Shown here piece by piece: positions 110 to 61,981 of a stretch of 64,000 nucleotides of DNA (positions are counted from its first letter, which is position 1; each line of letters begins with the position of its first letter). Both the position numbers and the translations under genes were made by a program. Under the pieces are notes generated by a model. The model had not been told where the DNA came from, searched no databases, and saw nothing but the letters and a program-made list of their open reading frames with translations. Where the stretch lies: positions 62,001 to 126,000 of the forward strand of contig CAMBXL010000003.1 of assembly GCA_945871905.1 (NCBI GenBank). The letters are read 5' to 3'. This DNA is from Chitinophaga pinensis (GTDB lineage Bacteria; Bacteroidota; Bacteroidia; NS11-12g; UBA955).

Positions 110-181
110 GTAATCTTCTGCTATTTTAGATAAACAAGCGTATTTCTCTGTAAATTAATTTTCAAAACCTTATTTTTTATC

Positions 182-189
182 TATTTTTG
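182..189 (+). promoter_or_regulatory. -7 promoter box (TATTTTTG) of the M16 protease gene
   Basis: TATTTTTG fits the Bacteroidota -7 consensus TAnnTTTG. It overlaps the upstream TTG codon at 187, which argues that translation begins at the ATG at 211. No clear -33 TTTG is seen at the usual distance. Confidence 0.55.
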
Positions 190-210
190 AAATCCTTTTT
201 ATTCATCAAA

Positions 211-3135
211 ATGAACAAATTTTTATTAATCTGCTTTGTATTGCTTGGTTTTCAAGTCAATTCACAAACCCGCTATTCTACCTACGGTAAAACATCGAAC
301 GGAAAATACACCTATACCAAAGTGGCAAACGACCCAACTGGTGCAAGATGGTATGTCCTTCCCAACGGACTTACTGTTATTTTATCTGTAAACAAAGAAC
401 AACCAAGTGTTCAAACATTAATTGCCGTAAAAGCAGGTAGCAAAAATGACCCTGCCGACAATACCGGATTAGCCCATTACTTGGAACACCTTTTATTTAA
501 AGGTACCGACCAATATGGCACTCAAGATTATGCCAAAGAAAGTATTTACTTGAAACAAATAGACCAACTTTACGAAAAATACAATCAAACGAAAGATGAA
601 AAATTGAGAACTTCTATCTACAGACAAATAGACAGTATCAGTAGCATTGCTTCACAATTCAGTATTGCCAATGAATACGACAAAGTTTGTCAGTCAATAG
701 GTGCACAAGGGACCAATGCTTTTACTAGTGTTGAACAAACAGTGTATGTTAACAATATCCCTTCTAACAGAATACACCAATGGGTACAATTGGAGGCTGA
801 AAGATACCGTCAACCAGTATTCAGATTATTTCACACTGAACTAGAAGCTGTTTACGAAGAAAAAAATATTTCATTGGACAACGACATGAGCAAAGTTTAC
901 GAGGGTTTATTTGCCAGTTTGTTTCGCCAACATCCTTATGGAACTCAAACAACTATTGGTACAGTTGATCATTTAAAAAACCCTTCTTTGGTCAAAATTA
1001 GAGAGTATTACAACACCTATTATGTTCCTAATAACATGGCAATTATAATGGTAGGCGATTTTAACCCTGATGAGTTAATTGAAATGATAGACGAACATTT
1101 TTCGTACATGAAACCTTCCACAGTTCCAGAATTTAAGTCCCCAATAGAATATCCAAGAGGTCGCCCTGACAGCATTTCAATTACTGGACCAGATGAAGCA
1201 AGCCTGGTGATGGGATGGCGTTTTGACGGTATTTCGAGCAGAGAAGCATTAATGGTAAGAGTTATTGATTTGTTATTAAGCAATAGCAAAGCTGGTTTGA
1301 TAGATTTGAACTTGGTGAAACAACAAAAAGCATTGAATGCTGGATGTTCGCCTGAATTTATGAAAGATTATTCTGTTCACTTATTTTATGGTTCTCCCAA
1401 ACAAGGTCAGTCATTGGAGGAATTAAGAGAACTGATTTTATCACAAATTGAAAAAATTAAAAAAGGCGAATTTGATGATGAATTACTAAAAGGGATTATT
1501 ACCAATAACATGGTTGACGAAATTAAAAAATATGAACAGTATGAAAGTGTTGCCTACTCCTTATTAGATGCTTTTGTTACCGACCGCAAATGGATAGATG
1601 TGTTGAATGACAATTTCAAAATGAGCATTGTAACTAAACAGGAAATAATGGACTTTGCCAATGAATATTACAACAATGGTTATAGCGTTATATACAAACG
1701 TACAGGTGAAAAACCCAAAATTGCAAAAATAGAAAAACCTGCTATTACCGAAGTGTCGCTCAACAGAGATAAAACTTCTTTATTTGTCAATGATTTATTG
1801 AGCGAAGAAGCGGATTCTATGCTTCCTGTTTTTGTAGATTACCAACAAAGTTTACAAACAGAAAAAATTGCTGGTCTAGATTTTTATTACAAAAAGAATG
1901 AAGACAATCAGTTGTTTACATTGTATTATGTTTTAGACATGGGACGTTTTAACAACAAAAAAATGCCTTTAGCAATTGAGTATTTGCAATACATAGGAAC
2001 CGACAAATACAAAGCAGATGAAATTAGTAAAAAGTTTTACCAATTGGCTTGTAATTATGGTGTTTCTGCAGGCGACAAAAGAAGTTACATTTACTTAAGC
2101 GGACCTCAACAAAACTTTAAAGAAGCTTTAACCCTATTCGAGCATTTATTGAGCAATGCTAAAGGAGACAATCAAGCATTAAAAGATTACATTGAAAGTA
2201 TTAAAAAATCGAGAGAAGACGAAAAACTCAACAAAAGAGCGATTGCTTCAGCTCTGAGCACTTATGCCCTTTATGGCAAAAACAATCCAAAAACATACTT
2301 ACTTAATAACGCTGAGTTAAATGCACTTACTGCACCTGAACTAATAAGTATTATTAAAAGTTTGAACCAATACAAGCACCATATTTTCTATTACGGTCCT
2401 GAGGAAAAAACGATCGCAGCCCAAACCATTACTCAACTGCATGTTGTGCCAAAACAGTTCCTTATTATTCCTCCGGCTATTGTTTTTAAACCACAAGTGC
2501 AAACCAAAAACATGGTGTACTTTACACATTATGAAATGGTTCAAGCCGAAATCAATTGGCGCAGCTCTTTGGGTGAGTTTAACATCAGTCAAGTTCCTGC
2601 AATTAGAGCGTTCAATGAATATTTTGGTGGCGGCATGAGCAGTGTTGTTTTTCAGGAAATCAGAGAATCTCGCGCCTTGGCATATTCTACTTATGCCTAC
2701 TACAATCAATCGATGGAAAAAGGAAAAAACGACTTATTGATAGCTTATGTAGGAACGCAAGCAGACAAATTACACGATGCCATTAAAACCATGAATGGTT
2801 TATTGAGTAATATGCCTGAAAATGAAGAAAGTTTCAACCAAGCAAAAGCCTCTATTTTAAGTTCAATAGAAGCCGAGCGTATCAACAAAACCAATTTATT
2901 CTTCAGATATTTAAGTGCAATTGACATGGGAATTGATTATGACTACAGAAAAATGGTTTATGAATCTATTCAAAAAATGACCTTCAATGACATTAAGCAA
3001 CTGCATGAACAAGCTGTTAAGAACGCAAAATGGTCGATGGCGATTGTTGGCTCAAAAGACAAAATAAAAGAAGCCGATTTACGTCAATATGGCGAATTCA
3101 AATCGTTGACTTTAGAAGAAATTTTCGGGTACTAA
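211..3135 (+). CDS. M16 (insulinase-type) zinc metallopeptidase, secreted/periplasmic
   Basis: Large protein of about 974 residues with the duplicated M16 architecture (two active-type plus two inactive-type halves). The inverted zinc motif HxxEH is seen as HYLEH at about residues 89-93, and the distal glutamate region ELEAVYEEKN follows about 75-120 residues later. The C-terminal half keeps the 'FNEYFGGGMSSVVFQEIRE' signature of the second M16 domain. An in-frame TTG exists at 187, but the ATG at 211 starts a clean signal peptide (MNKFLLICFVLLGFQVNS) and lies just after the promoter box, so it is preferred. Family members degrade peptides in the periplasm. A strong hairpin terminator follows, so it is probably a single-gene unit. 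Confidence 0.93.
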   Translation: MNKFLLICFVLLGFQVNSQTRYSTYGKTSNGKYTYTKVANDPTGARWYVLPNGLTVILSVNKEQPSVQTLIAVKAGSKNDPADNTGLAHYLEHLLFKGTDQYGTQDYAKESIYLKQIDQLYEKYNQTKDEKLRTSIYRQIDSISSIASQFSIANEYDKVCQSIGAQGTNAFTSVEQTVYVNNIPSNRIHQWVQLEAERYRQPVFRLFHTELEAVYEEKNISLDNDMSKVYEGLFASLFRQHPYGTQTTIGTVDHLKNPSLVKIREYYNTYYVPNNMAIIMVGDFNPDELIEMIDEHFSYMKPSTVPEFKSPIEYPRGRPDSISITGPDEASLVMGWRFDGISSREALMVRVIDLLLSNSKAGLIDLNLVKQQKALNAGCSPEFMKDYSVHLFYGSPKQGQSLEELRELILSQIEKIKKGEFDDELLKGIITNNMVDEIKKYEQYESVAYSLLDAFVTDRKWIDVLNDNFKMSIVTKQEIMDFANEYYNNGYSVIYKRTGEKPKIAKIEKPAITEVSLNRDKTSLFVNDLLSEEADSMLPVFVDYQQSLQTEKIAGLDFYYKKNEDNQLFTLYYVLDMGRFNNKKMPLAIEYLQYIGTDKYKADEISKKFYQLACNYGVSAGDKRSYIYLSGPQQNFKEALTLFEHLLSNAKGDNQALKDYIESIKKSREDEKLNKRAIASALSTYALYGKNNPKTYLLNNAELNALTAPELISIIKSLNQYKHHIFYYGPEEKTIAAQTITQLHVVPKQFLIIPPAIVFKPQVQTKNMVYFTHYEMVQAEINWRSSLGEFNISQVPAIRAFNEYFGGGMSSVVFQEIRESRALAYSTYAYYNQSMEKGKNDLLIAYVGTQADKLHDAIKTMNGLLSNMPENEESFNQAKASILSSIEAERINKTNLFFRYLSAIDMGIDYDYRKMVYESIQKMTFNDIKQLHEQAVKNAKWSMAIVGSKDKIKEADLRQYGEFKSLTLEEIFGY

Positions 3136-3165
3136 TACCCCTAAAGAATTTTATTGTACCTGTTT

Positions 3166-3202
3166 TAAAAAGGGATTTAACTAAGCATTAAATCCCTTTT
3201 TT
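3166..3202 (+). terminator. Rho-independent terminator after the M16 gene
   Basis: A perfect stem of about 13 bp (AAAAGGGATTTAA and its complement) with a 7-base loop is followed by a T run, 30 bases after the stop codon. Confidence 0.85.
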
Positions 3203-3368
3203 ATTCTCCAATTTAAGTATTAGAAATTCGTTATTAGAGTTAAATATCAAAAAATCAGCTTATTGTATATTGAAAAGCATCCACATTGTCGGATGGTTAA
3301 GAAAAACAATAATTAGCAAATTTGAAGAGATTTAGCTTGCAATAGAATGTCTAGTGCTTAGTTTGGGT

Positions 3369-4733
3369 TTACCCAAAAAGGTATTCAAAAGCTTCTTCTA
3401 CTTTTCCTATTTGGATAATTTTTATTTGGTAAGATTTCAGGTCGATCCCTTTATTGTACTTTGAAATCATTATTTCTTTGAACCCTAATTTTTGGGCTTC
3501 TGAAATCCTTTGTTCGATTCTTGAAACCGCTCTAACTTCCCCACTTAAACCAATTTCTGCCGAAAAAGCGATATGAGAATTGATAGGTACATTTTGGTAC
3601 GACGATAAAACGGCGGCAACGATTCCCAAATCCAATCCGGGGTCTTCGAGTTTCATTCCCCCTGCAATGTTTACAAACACGTCTTTTACTCCCAATTGGA
3701 AACCACATCGTTTTTCGAGAACGGCCAAAAGCATACTTAACCTCCTTAAATCAAAACCATTACTAGTACGCTGAGGGGTTCCATAAACAGCAGAACTAAC
3801 CAAAGATTGGGTTTCTAATAAGATGGGGCGAATACCTTCTACGGCGCAACTGATGGTAATACCACTCAATAATTCTTCACGCTCAGAAATCAAAATTTCC
3901 GAAGGATTTTCGATTTCACGAAGTCCATCCCCACGCATTTCGTAGATGCCTATTTCGCTTGCCGAACCAAATCGGTTTTTCAGCGTACGTAAAATTCTGT
4001 AATTGTAATGGCGGTCGCCTTCAAATTGCAAAACAGTATCCACCATGTGTTCCAAAACCTTAGGACCTGCAATATTTCCGTCTTTATTGATATGACCGAT
4101 TAAAAAAACTGGAATACCGGTTGACTTGGCAAAACGAAGCAGTTCTGCTGTGGCATATTTTATTTGACTGATACTTCCGGGAGGAGAATCGATAGAATCG
4201 CTTGAGAGTGTTTGTACAGAATCCACGATTAACAACTCAGGACTGCTTTTTTGCAAAAAGGAAATGAGATTTTCGAGAGATGTTTCGCACATAACATAGC
4301 AGTTTTGGTTCGTGATACCGATACGTTCGGCACGCATCTTTAACTGCGATTCACTTTCTTCACCACTGATGTAAAGGACATGTTGGTTTATTTTTAGTGC
4401 CAATTGCAGCAGAAGGGTTGATTTTCCAATTCCCGGTTCACCACCAATAAGCGTAATAGAACCAGAAACGAGACCACCGCCAAGTACGCGATTTAATTCA
4501 CTATCGGGCAAAAGAGTTCTGGTTTCAGAACCTTTTTCAATTTCCTGCATTTGAATGGCTTTGGTGGGAGTTCCACTTTCCGATTTGTTCCATAATTTTT
4601 TAGAATGGTCGGTTTTATTGACAATTTCCTCTGTAAAACTATTCCATTCCTCACATGAGGGACATTTCCCTAACCATTTTGTCGCAGAGTATCCACAATT
4701 CTTACAAAAATATTTAACAGTAGATTTTGTCAT
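3369..4733 (-). CDS. radA: DNA repair protein RadA
   Basis: 454 residues, the usual RadA length. In order it shows an N-terminal C4 zinc finger (CKNCG at about 10-14 and CPSC at about 24-27), a RecA-like ATPase with Walker A GGEPGIGKST at about 97-106, the RadA-specific KNRFG motif near residue 255, and a C-terminal Lon-protease-like domain. RadA promotes branch migration of recombination intermediates and helps process stalled forks in the cytoplasm. The ATG at 4733 directly precedes the zinc finger, so the start is secure. The gene stands alone on the minus strand, divergent from the ExbB operon; a near-consensus box with one base less spacing lies upstream but is not convincing. Confidence 0.96.
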   Translation of the reverse strand: MTKSTVKYFCKNCGYSATKWLGKCPSCEEWNSFTEEIVNKTDHSKKLWNKSESGTPTKAIQMQEIEKGSETRTLLPDSELNRVLGGGLVSGSITLIGGEPGIGKSTLLLQLALKINQHVLYISGEESESQLKMRAERIGITNQNCYVMCETSLENLISFLQKSSPELLIVDSVQTLSSDSIDSPPGSISQIKYATAELLRFAKSTGIPVFLIGHINKDGNIAGPKVLEHMVDTVLQFEGDRHYNYRILRTLKNRFGSASEIGIYEMRGDGLREIENPSEILISEREELLSGITISCAVEGIRPILLETQSLVSSAVYGTPQRTSNGFDLRRLSMLLAVLEKRCGFQLGVKDVFVNIAGGMKLEDPGLDLGIVAAVLSSYQNVPINSHIAFSAEIGLSGEVRAVSRIEQRISEAQKLGFKEIMISKYNKGIDLKSYQIKIIQIGKVEEAFEYLFG

Positions 4734-4845
4734 AAGTATGTCACAAATTAACGAATTTGTAAGGTAGAAATAAAAATTATCGTTAAAAAGATGAAAAAAA
4801 AGAAAGATTTAACTAATATTTAATTTAGATTGTGGAATATTTTAA

Positions 4846-4853
4846 TATTTTTG
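4846..4853 (+). promoter_or_regulatory. -7 promoter box (TATTTTTG) of the ExbB/ExbD operon
   Basis: TATTTTTG about 29 bases before the ATG of the first TonB-system gene. The expected start site falls near 4857, giving an A-rich leader of about 25 bases with no Shine-Dalgarno sequence. Confidence 0.55.
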
Positions 4854-4881
4854 CAGTCTCATTAATAGAAAATAAAAAAAA

Positions 4882-5694
4882 ATGAAAAAATTATTCGCCT
4901 TAATTCTTGGAATTAGCTTGTTTAGCAGTAACATGAGTTCATTAATGGCTCAAACACCACCTGCACCTGCCACAGAAGAAACTACACCTGACACCAATGT
5001 TAAAACAGAGGCTGTTGCAACTGAAGCCCCAGCAAAAGAAGAGAAAAAAGCAGAAGCACCATCAGGACACCAAGTAATCAAAAACAAATTCATCGAGGGA
5101 GATCCAATTTGGATGGCACCGGTATTAATTTGTATGCTTATCGGTTTAGCTATTGTTATTGAAAGAATCATCTCTTTATTCTTAATGGGCATTAACACTC
5201 AAAAATTTGTAAGTAGAGTTGAAGAACTTTTACGTACAAAAGGTGTTGAAGCTGCAAAAGAAGAGTGCAGAAACACAAAAGGCCCTATCGCTAGTATCTA
5301 TTACCAAGGTTTAGACAGAGTAGACGAAGGTATTGAAAAAGTAGATGCAGCAGTTCAATCTTATGGTTCAGTTCAAATGGGACAATTAGAAAAAGGGATG
5401 GTTTGGATTTCATTGTTCATTGCATTAGCACCGATGTTAGGATTCTTAGGAACGGTTGTAGGTATGATTTATGCATTTGATATGATTGCTGCAGCAGGTG
5501 ATATTTCTCCAACAATTGTTGCGAGTGGTATTAAAGTGGCTTTGTTAACAACAGTTGCTGGTTTGATTGTTGCTATTATCCTACAAATTTTCTATAACTT
5601 ATTATTGTCTAAAATAGACAGTATCGCTAACGAAATGGAAGATGCTTCTATCTCATTAACTGATATGTTAATCAAAAATAAAATTGTAAAATAA
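4882..5694 (+). CDS. exbB: MotA/TolQ/ExbB proton-channel family protein with N-terminal signal-like extension
   Basis: 270 residues. The C-terminal two thirds carry the MotA/TolQ/ExbB fold: a first membrane segment at about 75-100, a cytoplasmic loop, and a pair of segments around 'IALAPMLGFLGTVVGM' and 'VASGIKVALLTTVAGLIVAI', the hallmark ExbB region. With ExbD it forms the proton-motive-force motor that energises TonB-dependent outer-membrane uptake or related envelope work. Unusually, the N-terminus looks like a signal peptide (MKKLFALILGISLFSSNM ending LMAQ) followed by about 40 residues rich in Ala, Pro, Thr, Glu and Lys before the first channel segment. It is first in a four-gene operon with gaps of 5, 3 and 18 bases. 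Confidence 0.93.
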   Translation: MKKLFALILGISLFSSNMSSLMAQTPPAPATEETTPDTNVKTEAVATEAPAKEEKKAEAPSGHQVIKNKFIEGDPIWMAPVLICMLIGLAIVIERIISLFLMGINTQKFVSRVEELLRTKGVEAAKEECRNTKGPIASIYYQGLDRVDEGIEKVDAAVQSYGSVQMGQLEKGMVWISLFIALAPMLGFLGTVVGMIYAFDMIAAAGDISPTIVASGIKVALLTTVAGLIVAIILQIFYNLLLSKIDSIANEMEDASISLTDMLIKNKIVK

Positions 5695-57487: not shown

Positions 57488-57503
57488 CACTCCTTTTAGG
57501 AAA

Positions 57504-57550
57504 TTCCTTGATAGCTCTCCCGATAGCTATCTGGAGGTTAGAGCGAGTGA
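57504..57550 (+). pseudogene. Broken tRNA-Asn copy: 5' part interrupted by a palindrome-like insert
   Basis: TTCCTTGATAGCTC (57504-57517) and GGTTAGAGCGAGTGA (57536-57550) are identical to positions of the intact tRNA-Asn 80 bases downstream. Between them, the D-loop AGCT is replaced by 18 bases (TCCCGATAGCTATCTGGA) that nearly match the palindrome TCCCGATAGCTATCGGGA seen at 45583. The anticodon loop, T arm and 3' acceptor strand are missing. Confidence 0.85.
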
Positions 57551-57583
57551 AAGCAAACTCTAATTAAAAAAAATCGGACAGAT

Positions 57584-57657
57584 TCCTTGATAGCTCAGCT
57601 GGTTAGAGCGAGTGACTGTTAATCACTAGGTCCCTGGTTCGAGCCCAGGTCAGGGAG
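57584..57657 (+). tRNA. tRNA-Asn (anticodon GTT)
   Basis: Complete cloverleaf of 74 bases without encoded CCA: acceptor TCCTTGA pairs with TCAGGGA, D stem GCTC/GAGC, anticodon stem AGTGA/TCACT with loop CTGTTAA (anticodon GTT at 57618-57620), T stem CCTGG/CCAGG with loop TTCGAGC, discriminator G. It follows a strong promoter and a broken copy of itself, and ends 10 bases before a terminator stem. Confidence 0.95.
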
Positions 57658-57667
57658 CAATAATGAT

Positions 57668-57701
57668 AAAAAGGTTATACTTTTATAGTGTAACCTTTTT
57701 T
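57668..57701 (+). terminator. Terminator after tRNA-Asn
   Basis: AAGGTTATAC (57671-57680) pairs with GTGTAACCTT (57688-57697) with one G-T pair and is flanked by A and T runs. Confidence 0.85.
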
Positions 57702-57708
57702 ATGTCTT

Positions 57709-57816
57709 ATGGATAAGCTAGTTCAATTCCTTAAAAAGTACCGACGTCAAATCATCGTGGGCGTACTTTTCTATCTCTTCTTGATTTTCAGAGATGTAAT
57801 TAAGTCCTTCTTTTAA
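57709..57816 (+). CDS. Possible 35-residue single-helix membrane peptide
   Basis: ATG to TAA over 36 codons, with a basic N-terminus (QFLKKYRRQ) followed by one hydrophobic helix (IIVGVLFYLFLIF) and an amphipathic end. It starts 8 bases after the tRNA terminator and its stop codon merges with a hairpin (57816-57844). No promoter box was found, so expression is doubtful. Its layout parallels that of the 80-residue membrane protein 200 bases downstream: both precede a copy of the same non-coding block. Confidence 0.4.
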   Translation: MDKLVQFLKKYRRQIIVGVLFYLFLIFRDVIKSFF

Positions 57817-57839
57817 AATTGTAGGGAGTTTAATCCTAC

Positions 57840-57940
57840 AATTTCCTGATAGTCACATACTCAATCATCGCATTATTTTGCATCTTTCGAGGAAAAGGGG
57901 AGCTTCACTGGACAAGCCATCAGAATTGATGGCTTTTTTT
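57840..57940 (+). repeat. Non-coding block A: conserved ~60-base segment, GGGGAGC and terminator hairpin
   Basis: The segment from AATTTCC through TACTCAATCATCGCATTAT, TTGCATCTTT and GGGGAGC (57897-57903) recurs as block B at 58302. It ends with AAGCCATC/GATGGCTT (57914-57935) and a T run. The layout (promoter-like box, short body, tRNA-tail-like GGGAGC, terminator) resembles that of the tRNA-Asn locus without the tRNA body. Confidence 0.7.
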
Positions 57941-57970
57941 GTCTATCACTGAGTTAAGCTAGCTGCATCT

Positions 57971-58002
57971 TTTGTTTTTTTCTAAAAGAGTTTTTAAATT
58001 TG
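57971..58002 (+). promoter_or_regulatory. Promoter TTTG-N20-TAAATTTG of the 80-residue membrane protein
   Basis: TTTG (57971-57974) and TAAATTTG (57995-58002) are 20 bases apart, 22 bases upstream of the ATG at 58025. Confidence 0.65.
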
Positions 58003-58024
58003 CTCTAAATCAAATAGACTCAAA

Positions 58025-58267
58025 ATGAACGCACCTTTCAGTAAGTACCTCTACATTGGTTTTTTATTATTAGGCTTATACCAAGCCATTTTCTCTAAAG
58101 ACTATGTTCAAGCAGCAGCATCTCTGGGTATAGGATTGGCATTTGACCCATTCAATCCAGACCAAAAATGGAATGACAGACCCACTTGGCAAAAGGCAGT
58201 TTTGATTATTCACCTTGCATTGGTCGCAGCCATGTTTGGATTTGGTGTTGGGTTGAATGACAAGTAG
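58025..58267 (+). CDS. Small two-helix membrane protein, function unknown
   Basis: 80 residues: a helix at about 8-22 (YLYIGFLLLGLYQAIF), a loop with 'FDPFNPDQKWNDRPTWQKAV' and a second helix at about 57-76. The FDPFNPDQ.W..R..WQK pattern recurs, as I recall, in small Bacteroidota membrane proteins without known function. It has its own consensus promoter and an inverted repeat (GGGTTGAA/TTCAACCC, about 58250-58298) around its stop codon, then block B. Single-gene unit. Confidence 0.75.
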   Translation: MNAPFSKYLYIGFLLLGLYQAIFSKDYVQAAASLGIGLAFDPFNPDQKWNDRPTWQKAVLIIHLALVAAMFGFGVGLNDK

Positions 58268-58301
58268 ACCTCTTGTAAACTTGCACGAAGTTCAACCCTT
58301 T

Positions 58302-58398
58302 AATTTCCAAATAGTCAAGTACTCAATCATTGCATTATAGTTGCATCTTTTGTCAATAAGGGGAGCATCAAAAAGCCGCAAGTCCTGCGGCTTTTTTT
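58302..58398 (+). repeat. Non-coding block B: second copy of block A with a different terminator hairpin
   Basis: It shares with block A AATTTCC, ATAGTCA, TACTCAATCAT, GCATTAT, TTGCATCTTT and AAGGGGAGC (GGGGAGC at 58360-58366) in the same order and spacing. The hairpin AAAGCCGCA/TGCGGCTTT (58372-58394) with a T run differs in sequence but not in position. Confidence 0.7.
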
Positions 58399-58442
58399 AT
58401 TACATAATTTTTATTAGTATAGCTCTTTCAAAAACTATCAAT

Positions 58443-58736
58443 TTGCTGTTCTTAGTTTACATTCTTTTTTCTGAAAAACTCAATAAATACTACATCGGAA
58501 CTACAGATGACATAGAGCGAAGAGTTAAAGAACATAATAGTAAATTCTATGAAAACAATTACACTAGCAGAGGAATTCCTTGGCAAATGGCCTTTAACAT
58601 TTCTTGCCAATCAAGCAGTCAGGCTTTTAAAATTGAAAAACATATCAAGGCTATGCATTCAAAGAACTATATCCAGAATTTGATTAAATATCCTGAAATG
58701 ACTCAGAAATTACTTGATAGGTACAAAGATTTATAA
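58443..58736 (+). CDS. GIY-YIG nuclease-family protein
   Basis: About 98 residues. 'VYILFSEKLNKYYIGTTDDI' holds the VYI...YIG core of the small UPF0213/GIY-YIG family, followed by 'ERRVKEHNS' with the catalytic-type Arg, and the conserved Glu in 'QAFKIEKHIKAMHSK'. The only plausible start is TTG at 58443 (or the CTG after it); the open frame upstream runs through block B and its terminator and is not coding. Such stand-alone GIY-YIG genes are frequent in Bacteroidota; biological role unknown. Confidence 0.82.
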   Translation: MLFLVYILFSEKLNKYYIGTTDDIERRVKEHNSKFYENNYTSRGIPWQMAFNISCQSSSQAFKIEKHIKAMHSKNYIQNLIKYPEMTQKLLDRYKDL

Positions 58737-58809
58737 AGTCAAAGTTGATTAGCGTTCAACCATATCCATTTCGGGAGAAATTAATTACACAAAAATACTT
58801 TAATTAAAT

Positions 58810-59235
58810 CTATTCAACGACATATTGCATAGAAGCTGTTGCTCTTGCATCATCATTATTGTCATCTAATTTCTTCTGGGCAAATGGAGAACCGTTTTTA
58901 CTAACAGAGATGCTTAAAGATATTTTTAAATGATTCTCAGTCCCGCCATTCCATCCCTTTTTAACAACATTTAAGTCAGCAAGAAATCCGCTTTTTACAG
59001 GTCCTATAGTTGTTTCCCAGTCACCAGTATTGATAACAGATTGAATAATCTGATTAGATTCGTTGGTTATACTTGTATTGAGTTTTACCCCATAATAAGG
59101 CGATGAATTACTTTTTACAGAATATTTAATGTAATATTCATCACTATTTGAAGCATCGTTAGCATCTTTCTTACATCCGATTGCAAAGCTAAACAGAAGT
59201 ATAATAAATACTATTTTAACGTTTATAGTTTTCAT
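58810..59235 (-). CDS. Putative lipoprotein, function unknown
   Basis: 141 residues. The signal peptide VKIVFIILLFSFAIGC ends in a lipobox-like AIGC, with Cys at residue 21, then KKDANDASNSDE, a typical acidic spacer after the lipid anchor in Bacteroidota. The mature part is beta-rich ('EYYIKYSVKSNSSPYYGVKL') and ends 'RATASMQYVVE'; no known motif. A -7 box touches the ATG. Confidence 0.72.
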   Translation of the reverse strand: MKTINVKIVFIILLFSFAIGCKKDANDASNSDEYYIKYSVKSNSSPYYGVKLNTSITNESNQIIQSVINTGDWETTIGPVKSGFLADLNVVKKGWNGGTENHLKISLSISVSKNGSPFAQKKLDDNNDDARATASMQYVVE

Positions 59236-59239
59236 TCTA

Positions 59240-59247
59240 CAAATTTA
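59240..59247 (-). promoter_or_regulatory. -7 promoter box (TAAATTTG) abutting the lipoprotein gene
   Basis: On the minus strand TAAATTTG ends 4 bases before the ATG at 59235; a leaderless transcript is predicted. Confidence 0.5.
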
Positions 59248-59310
59248 TATATTTCTAAATAATGTAAAACTATATTTCATGAACTTAAAATCACAAAAAT
59301 AATCACAAAA

Positions 59311-59340
59311 AAAGCTTGCACTTTTTAGGTGCAAGCTTTC
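59311..59340. terminator. Terminator between the LamG protein and the lipoprotein gene
   Basis: AAAGCTTGCAC (59311-59321) pairs perfectly with GTGCAAGCTTT (59329-59339) around a 7-base loop, with an A run on the left that reads as a T run for minus-strand transcription of the upstream gene. Confidence 0.8.
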
Positions 59341-59362
59341 AATTATCTGAATAGGTTATTGG

Positions 59363-60709
59363 CTATTGTAAAACGATTTTCTTAACTCCTACCACTTTGT
59401 TATTGGCATCGGAGATATAAAGGGTATATACACCTGCTCCACCCATCGTTTTAGCATCAATTACAAACTGTTGTTGATTGATAACCGATTGGAACACCTG
59501 TTGACCTGCTGTATTAACGATTTTAGCGGTATAAGTACCCATTGTGCTGTAGTTCCCATTATCAATTATGACTTGGGTGCTACTTGGGTTAGGATATACC
59601 TTTACCGTGTTGTAAACAGGGTTACTTAAACTACTTGTATTAACCTTGATGTAAAGAGTATCTCGGGTACTTGTGATACAGGTATCATTAACCGTTAACA
59701 TTGCAACAACTGAAGTGTCTTTACAAGTGTTTTTGGTAGCGATTACTCGGAATAGTTGTTCGTGGTTTTTGACTTTTATGTTGTTAACTGTCAATTTTTT
59801 TGATGTAACTCCCGAATAGAACGAACTTGAGGGAATATTAACCCATCCAAGATTTGATTGATTAGATTGCCATTGGTAAGAAGATGTTGTATCATTAGCT
59901 AATGTATTAAATTGAACTTGTCCGTTGATTGATGATGATTTACTTGTTGGTTCTGTGGAAATAGATAATTTACATCCATAATATAAATCCTTTATTTCTG
60001 ATGCAGATAGTGCACGATTCCAAATTCCGATATCATCTAATTTGCCATTATAAAATTGACCACTTGATGCCCCAAATCCACAAACTGCATTTGTATTATA
60101 TCCACCTATAGATAAATTTGCATTGCAAGAATTTGCAATAATCTTATTTGAAAAAACAATTGTTGACTCCTTCACGCCATCAACATAAATACACATTGAA
60201 TCAGGTGAATATGTAGCCACAATAAATATCCAACTACCTTTGTTAACTATACTATTACTGCATATTCCTTTATCTCCAGAAGGACTTAAATTTGAAAAAT
60301 ACAAAGCCGCTTTATTTTTTTGATTACAAAAATTACCATTAATAGTAAATTGTGGTTGACCATATGGTTGTCCAAAAATAAAACGTTGCTCACCTCCAAA
60401 ATCATTTGAAGTATTTATCCATGCACATAAAGTTCCAGTTAATGAAGTAAGGCTGGATTTATATGGAATATCAATATATGATGAGATGGAATTATCTAAT
60501 AAAATCGCATTTGTATTACTACCATACCTATCACTAGTTAATGCTGCACCATAGATTGTTCCATTATTCCCATTTCCACTTACATCATTAGCATTGCCTG
60601 AAAACGGCCACCAACCCACCAAACCATTGCTTGGCACATAACTTGGCACCTGGGCATTGGCATTTAACAAAGTTCCTACAAGGAACATACTTAGTATTAT
60701 TTTTTTCAT
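59363..60709 (-). CDS. Secreted LamG-domain protein with T9SS type A sorting domain
   Basis: 448 residues with a signal peptide (KKIILSMFLVGTLLNANAQ). 'GLVGWWPFSGNANDVSGNGN' starts a LamG/concanavalin-like lectin domain (about 30-245) that ends 'GKLDDIGIWNRALSASEI'. An Ig-like segment follows ('YQWQSNQSNLGWVNI'), and the last 75 residues (VKVYPNPSSTQVIID to KKIVLQ) form a type A Por-secretion sorting domain. It is expected to be exported through the type IX system and attached to or released from the cell surface; ligand unknown. About 500 bases without genes lie upstream. Confidence 0.9.
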   Translation of the reverse strand: MKKIILSMFLVGTLLNANAQVPSYVPSNGLVGWWPFSGNANDVSGNGNNGTIYGAALTSDRYGSNTNAILLDNSISSYIDIPYKSSLTSLTGTLCAWINTSNDFGGEQRFIFGQPYGQPQFTINGNFCNQKNKAALYFSNLSPSGDKGICSNSIVNKGSWIFIVATYSPDSMCIYVDGVKESTIVFSNKIIANSCNANLSIGGYNTNAVCGFGASSGQFYNGKLDDIGIWNRALSASEIKDLYYGCKLSISTEPTSKSSSINGQVQFNTLANDTTSSYQWQSNQSNLGWVNIPSSSFYSGVTSKKLTVNNIKVKNHEQLFRVIATKNTCKDTSVVAMLTVNDTCITSTRDTLYIKVNTSSLSNPVYNTVKVYPNPSSTQVIIDNGNYSTMGTYTAKIVNTAGQQVFQSVINQQQFVIDAKTMGGAGVYTLYISDANNKVVGVKKIVLQ

Positions 60710-61209
60710 ATTTTTTAATAAACTGATACAATATTAACCTTAAATCTATTCTTTAAAAAATAAATCAACCAAAGGAAGGTCAGAGAAGGTGAAAGCACAA
60801 CTTACTCATATGAAAGGATAGATTCATCATGTTATATTATATCGTAAAATCTATCAATTGGTTTAAACCTAAAACCCACCAAAATCCACCTGTCCAGCAA
60901 ACTAAACACCCCAAGCAATCTTTATCTATTTGTTTTATAGAGTATTATGTAATCTATTAGGGGTTGTGGGTTGTATTTTGGGTCATTAAAATTATTCGAG
61001 CCCAGTCCCGATAGCTAATTGACTATGTATGTCCCGATTATTATCTTGAGGGAGCAAAATTCAATTAAATGCACTTATTAAAATTTAAAAATAATGAATA
61101 TGTTACACGTAGCATTTTCCCTAGACCTAATGAATGGTAGAAAAACCAAAAGATATTTTACTGTGGATGTATAAAATTAAATAAAAATAGAAAATCCATA
61201 TAAGTTGCT
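60710..61209. other. Gene-poor stretch with tRNA-tail-like and palindrome fragments
   Basis: No convincing gene was found. At 60995-61005 TTCGAGCCCAG equals the T loop and 3' T stem of the tRNA-Asn; it is followed by two CCCGATA pieces (about 61006-61014 and 61032-61039) and then GAGGGAGCAA (61048-61057), which matches the tRNA acceptor end. A 26-codon open frame at 61094-61174 has no promoter and looks accidental. Confidence 0.5.
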
Positions 61210-61217
61210 TAAGTTTG
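61210..61217 (+). promoter_or_regulatory. -7 promoter box (TAAGTTTG) of the SOUL protein gene
   Basis: TAAGTTTG lies 27 bases before the ATG at 61245. No -33 element is recognisable at the normal distance. Confidence 0.45.
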
Positions 61218-61244
61218 TTATATATCATCATACCATTAATCCAA

Positions 61245-61832
61245 ATGAAAACAGCAATTATTATTATTTCTATTTTATTATTGATAGTCATCATACAGAT
61301 TTACATATCAAGAAGCACCCAACAAACAGAACAATACAGTTACAAGGTAATAAAAAATTATGACAAATTTGAGATTAGGAAATATGACTCCGCCTTGTTT
61401 TCAAGCGTAAAACTGAGTAAGAAAGGTTACAAAGAAAGTTCAAGTGAAGGTTTTGGTATATTGGCTGGGTATATTTTTGGAAATAATGAATCAAACGAAA
61501 AAATCGCCATGACCTCACCGGTAATGATGGAACTAGGAGATACTTCTAAAATGATGTTTATGGTTCCAAAAAATAAAAATTTGGAGAATTTGCCAAATCC
61601 CAAAAACAGTAAAATAGTATTCGAAAAACAGGAAGAAAAAATTTTTGCGGCCATTCGGTTTGATGGATGGGCAGATGATGAAAAAATTGAAAAATACAAG
61701 TCTATTTTAAGAGATGAATTAGAAAAAGAAAAAATAAATTTCGTAAATAAATTTCTTTTTCTAGGATATAATCCCCCTTATGAAGTCATGAATAGACGTA
61801 ATGAAGTTGTGGTTGAATTAATTAACTATTAG
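61245..61832 (+). CDS. SOUL family heme-binding protein
   Basis: About 195 residues from the ATG at 61245; ten extra codons upstream overlap the promoter region. An N-terminal membrane anchor (AIIIISILLLIVIIQIYI) is followed by the SOUL/p22HBP core: 'YKVIKNYDKFEIRKYDSALF', 'GFGILAGYIFGNNESNEKIA', 'MTSPVMMEL' and 'NPPYEVMNRRNEVVVEL'. Eukaryotic members bind heme; bacterial ones are widespread but uncharacterised. It stands alone, with block C downstream. Confidence 0.9.
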   Translation: MKTAIIIISILLLIVIIQIYISRSTQQTEQYSYKVIKNYDKFEIRKYDSALFSSVKLSKKGYKESSSEGFGILAGYIFGNNESNEKIAMTSPVMMELGDTSKMMFMVPKNKNLENLPNPKNSKIVFEKQEEKIFAAIRFDGWADDEKIEKYKSILRDELEKEKINFVNKFLFLGYNPPYEVMNRRNEVVVELINY

Positions 61833-61892
61833 TTGTAACTCATCAATTACCACTTCACTGTATTAAAACTTTAATTCTTCAATATTTTAAAG

Positions 61893-61981
61893 ATTGAATC
61901 ATTAATCATGGAGACAAAACTGCAACTTATTCCAATGAGGGGAGCAAAACAAAAAAGCATTCACGTCCGAGTGGATTTTTT
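61893..61981 (+). repeat. Non-coding block C: distant copy of blocks A and B with terminator hairpin
   Basis: CTGCAACTTATTCCAATGA followed by GGGGAGCA (GGGGAGC at 61939-61945) aligns with TTGCATCTTTTGTCAATAA plus GGGGAGCA of block B. The hairpin ATTCAC/GTGGAT (61959-61976) with a T run stands at the same place. Similarity is lower than between A and B. Confidence 0.5.

Follow-up and report, generated by a model that had tools for sequence, protein, structure and literature searches.

Repeated blocks behind a Bacteroidota tRNA-Asn gene are probably attachment-site scars made of severed serine integrase tails

The DNA analyzed here, referred to as the window, is a 64,000-nt stretch (positions 62001-126000 of contig C3) of genome G000, an assembly of 2.5 Mb in 31 contigs; other genomes and loci are cited by their G and L numbers. 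A tRNA-Asn(GTT) gene lies on the + strand of the window at 57584-57658, as identified by ARAGORN and Rfam, and is followed by three repeated blocks, A, B and C, which are the subject of this report. The blocks are probably attachment-site scars, that is, severed integrase tails from elements that integrated behind tRNA-Asn, a reading to which we give a probability of roughly 85%. Read in this way, the window is a decayed cassette array with three scars, of which two delimit the short cassettes immediately next to the tRNA.

An earlier note, made from the sequence alone, described three repeated blocks of which the third was the weakest, and a profile hidden Markov model trained only on copies outside the window recovered exactly this series with nhmmer on the + strand: B at 58268-58365 (E 4.8e-27), A at 57807-57902 (E 2.7e-21) and C at 61867-61944 (E 4e-4), with no other convincing match in the window (next best E 0.67). 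A and B are almost certainly homologous to each other, with 79% identity over 68 nt and 80% over 30 nt, the shared part ending in AAGGGGAGC, and block C is, on sequence grounds, a diverged third copy of them. The sizes originally given were too short, the conserved unit, termed X, being about 100 nt long (A 57804-57903, B 58265-58366, C 61864-61945). X terminates precisely at GGGGAGC, and a different intrinsic terminator stands to the right of each copy; the alignment also confirmed the differing hairpins with T runs that had been noticed right of the shared A/B segment. Likewise real is the tRNA-Asn gene with an AGGGAGC end (57652-57658) and a terminator, and this 3' end, which anchors the array, corresponds to the shared core at 57897-57903 in A, 58360-58366 in B and 61939-61945 in C.

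The conservation of X follows a reading frame on the opposite strand. Across about 70 distinct copies from several Bacteroidota families, the minus strand encodes APLIDERCSYNAMIEYVTIRKLKG followed by a stop, beginning exactly at the core GGGGAGC. Among the 55 copies that could be aligned, the minus-strand frame set by the core was open over 24 codons in 51 and had a stop at codon 25 in 39, compared with 0/55 open for the two other frames of that strand. Substitutions fall mostly on third codon positions, and the BLOSUM score per pair was 58.7 in the coding frame versus 21-39 in the five other frames. Within the window the frame is intact in B, which reads APLIDKRCNYNAMIEYLTIWKLKG-stop from 58366 down to 58292, diverged yet open and of the same length in C (APLIGISCSFVSMINDSIFKILKN-stop, read from 61945 down), and shifted by a 1-nt deletion in A. 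The sequence that the earlier note had called a degenerate -7 box is present in the blocks; it belongs to this conserved frame of the other strand and therefore need not be a promoter. Alignment folding of X gave no convincing covarying structure (10 weak pairs, -1.12 kcal/mol, 2 pairs with any double change). An Rfam scan of the window region returned tRNA only and no family for the blocks, and ARAGORN and Rfam found in the window just the intact tRNA, with no fragment of a tRNA body in the blocks beyond the last seven bases; true displaced tRNA-Asn fragments do occur as separate tails in other genomes.

The protein whose end is encoded by X is a serine integrase. Remnants of integrase C-termini lie directly right of X, or of a further tail termed Z, and in the same orientation in G354, L066 and G018, and in relatives the two halves are joined in frame across the core (...VLEGSKNKKETISSLLSIM-AP-LIDKRCNYNAMIEYVTIRKLKG-stop). 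The in-frame fusion at L115 reads IKKQVDLDLFSQL-AP-LTDERCSYNTMIEFVTIRKLKG-stop (41% identity over 105 aa), and that at L066 reads SKVLEGSKNKKETISSLLSIM-AP-LIDKRCNYNAMIEYVTIRKLKG-stop, to be compared with RGVLEGSKNKKEVISDLLCTL-AP-SPGLEPGTP in Aquirufa. At L084 the remnant continues in frame into the Z tail (KEKEVKIDLLPTL-AP-QIGLFSNQFWDKLRVYAALV), because of which Z, conserved in six copies, is on this evidence a second native integrase tail. The other side of the core, termed T, was read in frame with the core in 75 distinct regions and compared with control frames and shifted registers. Its codons resembled integrase C-termini (score at least 20) in 19 of the 75, whereas no control frame or register gave such a resemblance. 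Among these 19 is the T region of window copy A (KKAINSDGLSSE-AP, score 28), where the type-T1 terminator of the + strand at 57904-57945 coincides with the minus-strand codons before the core, a remnant of an integrase C-terminus.

Such C-terminal codon remnants are all that the window retains of the integrase, and the catalytic part is seen in relatives. Resolvase and Recombinase domains (PF00239 and PF07508, by Pfam) were identified in proteins of about 520 aa at L234, L241, L243 and L254, and by these domains the integrases of this family are large serine integrases. In the isolate Aquirufa rosea (L234), a 521-aa integrase lies right behind tRNA-Asn and runs antisense into it, its last residues, LAPSPGLEPGTP, being antisense tRNA; the order there is tRNA-Asn, integrase, plasmid-like genes and X cassettes, which does not prove the pairing of X with this integrase. 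Relatives of the integrase were found in 85 of 395 genomes sampled from the class. At 24 of 31 integrase loci (30 from the class search, plus Aquirufa), the gene runs antisense into the 3' end of a tRNA (Asn, Glu, Leu, Arg, Val, Lys, Pro, Met or Phe), and at 20 of these 24 a terminator of the tRNA strand falls within the last integrase codons; control windows taken from these genes contained one in 9 of 192 cases. Together, the antisense tRNA endings and the terminators in the last codons indicate that attP probably lies inside the 3' end of the integrase gene, int. Genome G000 itself carries large serine integrases at C12:57557-58963 and C1:30457-31866 (L276, L277), antisense into tRNA-Arg(acg) and tRNA-Arg(tct). 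Plasmid and phage collections returned only distant matches to the integrase, all under 60% identity, and IMG/VR returned none.

The arrays are anchored at tRNA-Asn. Contigs with an upstream tRNA on the same strand gave 26 rows, three of which were second copies of the same genome, and in 22 of the 23 independent contigs the nearest such tRNA was tRNA-Asn(GTT). The link to tRNA ends that had been suspected from the sequence thus held, GGGGAGC being the 3' end of tRNA-Asn and the copies not being without connection to tRNA genes. The search for copies beside intact tRNAs, which the earlier note had proposed, found the tail of block B with its terminator directly behind an intact tRNA-Asn in another genome. 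The core GGGGAGC is present at every junction. The terminators belong to a few types (T1-T8) common to tRNA-Asn and X sites, and exact T1 occurred five times in 70 genomes, always directly behind tRNA-Asn or X-type sites. Cassettes also recur in different contexts with homology beginning at the core: G117 (behind X) and G089 (behind tRNA-Asn) are 92% identical from -7, L061 (behind X) and G018 (behind a tRNA-Asn tail) 87% from -7, and an SDR cassette is shared over its whole 900 bp at 86% between Aquirufa and a Chitinophaga-labelled metagenome-assembled genome (MAG; L057).

These observations can be arranged in the following scheme. The attP core GGGGAGC would lie within the 3' end of int as the codons Ala-Pro of the integrase strand, and the gene before integration would have the order body-T-AP-X. 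Insertion at the 3' end of tRNA-Asn would give tRNA-T-body, with the int tail now encoded by antisense tRNA (AP-SPGLEPGTP) and the codons just before the core doubling as the new tRNA terminator on the other strand. X, the last 24 codons of the native gene with their stop, would stay at the far end of the element, next to the old flank. In most elements, loss of the integrase body would have left small T-cargo-X elements with one or two cargo genes, and later insertions at tRNA-Asn would displace older cassettes outward, which would set the insertion order of the stacked array. The geometry is consistent with recombination of attP with attB at a short core giving attL and attR, a reaction that the serine integrase would catalyze. 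A bolder extension, which we offer tentatively and at somewhat short of even confidence, is integron-like gene capture, in which serine integrases whose attP is their own int 3' end would both insert and excise single-gene cassettes in trans at tRNA-Asn. Integration would switch the integrase tail, and perhaps with it activity or stability, between the native and the tRNA-encoded form, and the cassette would supply the tRNA terminator within int codons; the cassettes may be mobile at present.

Of the 70 family genomes, 22 contained X at E 0.01; it was also detected in just one further genome of the order and in 14 of the 395 class genomes, across several families. An exact 27-mer pattern occurred in 30 GTDB contigs, among them a 311-kb contig of Aquirufa rosea and a 3.2-Mb contig of Sediminibacterium sp. 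C3; many X-bearing records are MAGs, but these two organisms are isolates. Near-identical copies turn up patchily in different families and orders, a pattern that indicates horizontal spread of X. A phage or plasmid origin was rejected, as X had no match in phage collections, IMG/VR or PLSDB. The copies stand in tandem, mostly with one or two genes between them, and the 57 segments between X copies have a median length of 904 bp (range 177-5302). Cargo open reading frames (ORFs) favor the direction of the tRNA by 54:20, and their products include MBL-fold hydrolase, SDR, DJ-1/PfpI, TfoX-C, DUF3703, AraC, SOUL and GIY-YIG proteins and small unknown proteins, some of them named by sequence alone. 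Other tails with the same core are Y (a diverged X), Z, displaced tRNA-Asn 3' halves and palindrome-bearing tRNA tails. Tails of the last kind, T-arms of tRNA-Asn split by the REP-like palindrome TCCCGATAGCTATCGGGA, were observed at L086 (G005:C60, 2939-3553), L203 (9625) and L208 (566), where they repeat several times around a GIY-YIG gene.

From the tRNA outward, cassette 1 of the window (57659-57903) begins with the tRNA-Asn terminator, of type T3 (57659-57703, +), which is also found behind X tails in other genomes, and contains a 35-aa membrane-like ORF (57709-57816, +) ahead of block A; the whole 245 bp recur at 80% identity behind a Z tail in G082. Cassette 2 (57904-58366) consists of the T1 region, an 80-aa protein without Pfam match (58025-58267, +), whose family is found ahead of X in G017 and G020 and recurs in other arrays, and block B. 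The type-T7 terminator (58367-58400, +), identical to one directly behind an intact tRNA-Asn in G012, forms the left end of the next unit. Right of B lie an ORF with a GIY-YIG nuclease domain (58341-58736, +; Pfam E 8e-13 for a 97-aa version, the true start being inside the ORF), a 141-aa lipoprotein-like cargo (58810-59235, -) that has a homologue in the array behind tRNA-Asn of congener G007 (L202), and a Laminin_G_3/Por secretion-tail protein identified by Pfam (59363-60709, -), similar to a gene in the G005 array. These are followed by a decayed Y tail (GGTTGTATTTTGGGTCA) with a decayed tRNA-Asn tail (TTCGAGCCCAG..GAGGGAGC) at 60960-61055 (+), of which G005 and G007 have intact forms, by a SOUL haem-binding protein (61215-61832, +; Pfam E 1e-44) with a homologue in the array of congener G015, and by block C with a type-T8 terminator (61946-61980, +), a type seen behind tRNA-Asn in G365 and in G009. 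Genomes of the same genus as the window differ in how much is inserted at their tRNA-Asn locus: almost nothing in G014, but several kb in G003, G007 and G015, where relatives of the window cargo occur (SOUL, 80-aa protein, lipoprotein). In G005, a LamG gene and tails are situated close to apt, which is also the arrangement in the window. Just upstream of the intact tRNA gene, at 57501-57560, there is additionally a partial second copy of the tRNA-Asn 5' part (AAATTCCTTGATAGC..GGTTAGAGCGAGTGA), split by the palindrome-like CTCCCGATAGCTATCTGGAG.

Several points weigh against the scar interpretation. Searches of phage and plasmid collections and IMG/VR yielded no free circular form or intact attP and no full-length integrase ending in X, and most of the sampled array genomes have no close integrase relative beside the array. 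Additionally, 32 of the 75 T regions are not open and window copy A is frameshifted, which together imply that most copies have decayed. The array at G083:C6 is preceded by tRNA-Met rather than tRNA-Asn. At this locus (L079, 278-288 kb) the tRNA-Met is near the contig end, and the tRNA-Asn of G083, on contig C4, carries T1 with no X found nearby. Finally, the A118 serine integrase does not use attL as attB (PMC3556126), so accretion in tandem needs an extra assumption. The arrays imply that the tRNA-T junction serves as a target again, which could be explained by relaxed right half-sites, by different integrase types or by homologous recombination between X copies.

The alternative that survives best accepts the scars as described and supposes that cassettes today spread solely through homologous exchange at X or tRNA-Asn copies once DNA has been taken up, with integrase activity confined to the distant past. 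We regard it as possible but less likely than not. X is about 100 nt long with copies alike enough for exchange, and the decay of most T and X copies and the scarcity of close integrases at the arrays fit this account. One ATPase cassette, present in a pair of contexts, has a different terminator in each, which shows that sequence right of the core is exchanged as well. Several junctions, however, swap tRNA-Asn for X at the 7-nt core without longer homology, which speaks against this account.

It is very improbable that cassette capture is driven by GIY-YIG homing nucleases that cleave the tRNA end. Their genes stand right behind tRNA-Asn in G012 and after block B in the window, and at L084 (G018:C51, 9581-10039) one separates an intact tRNA-Asn from a displaced 3' half of tRNA-Asn that has retained a terminator, the layout expected of a mobile GIY-YIG gene that has inserted cleanly at a tRNA. 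Small GIY-YIG genes are nevertheless absent from the array-rich genomes G083, G089, G082, G020, G032, G071 and G067, where only a UvrC-type match of about 600 aa was found. The nuclease is thereby largely refuted as a general driver and may be a separate mobile gene using the same site.

Slightly less credible still is an integron-like system in which X would serve as the equivalent of attC, with an integron-type tyrosine integrase or Xer acting on it in trans. One-gene cassettes with a site behind each gene do recall integrons, and G000, G117, G018 and G407 have an IntI-like enzyme. X, however, is the 3' coding end of a serine integrase, ends in AAGGGGAGC rather than GTTRRRY and lacks palindromic structure, and in the array-bearing genomes G020, G023 and G482 the tyrosine recombinases number only two, those that were typed being Xer-like. 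No IntI was found at any array read, and several array genomes have none at all. The IntI-like enzyme (in G000 at C12:3324-3809, L174) has the C-terminus SPFDDL and an N-terminal extension, scores below the TIGR02249 cut-off and occurs in some array genomes only; Xer and IntI-like enzymes were rejected as drivers for lack of correlation with the arrays. A single-domain tyrosine recombinase of about 190 aa without core-binding domain (L061 536-1102, L121 1-506, L124 1498-2070) is twice the cargo of an X-tailed cassette (L061, L121); it was rejected as a driver, being present in only 2 of 70 family genomes, which marks it as cargo. The view of the earlier note that the blocks are tRNA loci without a tRNA body or short structured RNAs, suggested by the order of promoter-like box, GGGGAGC and terminator in the window, can hardly be upheld given the lack of a tRNA-like body in about 70 copies, the unconvincing structure, the missing Rfam family and a conservation that tracks the coding frame of the other strand.

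Among known systems, the scar interpretation most recalls the SSV-type or "suicidal" integrases of SSV1, pTN3 and pT26-2 (reviewed in PMC8371274), in which the recombination site is inside the integrase gene, integration at a chromosomal target, for instance a tRNA gene, breaks the integrase gene apart, a fragment of it is left at the other end of the element, and decayed elements stay trapped. A site inside the integrase gene is indicated here by the in-frame fusions of C-termini to X or Z across the core and by the antisense tRNA tails at loci where the element is integrated; no intact free form was encountered. SSV-type enzymes are archaeal tyrosine recombinases whose activity is killed by the splitting, whereas here a bacterial serine recombinase would exchange only its last 24 or so codons for antisense tRNA codons. 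Large serine integrases of the A118, Bxb1 and phiC31 type share the Resolvase and Recombinase domains, the length of about 520 aa and a short core common to both sites, but differ from the present case, in which attP would lie in the 3' coding end of int, tRNA 3' ends are targeted, int codons double as tRNA terminator and arrays of one-gene remnants occur. With integrons the arrays have in common tandem one-gene cassettes, each with a site repeat, anchored at one chromosomal site and shared across taxa; here the enzyme class is another, the attC signature (RYYYAAC ... GTTRRRY, foldable) is absent, cargo genes point either way and the site itself is a piece of int. The Riemerella 10K island, an example of Bacteroidota tRNA islands, likewise has insertion downstream of a tRNA (tRNA-Arg) and direct repeats at both element ends, but its integrase is a tyrosine recombinase and its repeat measures 53 bp (PMC6764341), in contrast to the 7-nt core found here.

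In the open-access literature we found no description of tRNA-Asn cassettes, of serine integrases with attP inside int, or of Bacteroidota serine integrases in tRNA genes. Self-disrupting integrases, whose target lies in their own gene, have been stated to occur only in Archaea, as tyrosine recombinases (PMC8371274). The system described here would be a bacterial serine-recombinase variant of this SSV-type logic, with a tail swap, seen at many different Bacteroidota tRNA genes. It would account for an oddity of annotation, integrase C-termini that end in GLEPGTP-like antisense tRNA peptides, and X and the related tails would provide a marker for mapping inserted cassettes. The putative natural attP/attB pairs at tRNA-Asn are possible integration tools for Bacteroidota, and the double use of integrase codons as a tRNA terminator would represent an overlapping code in these bacteria.

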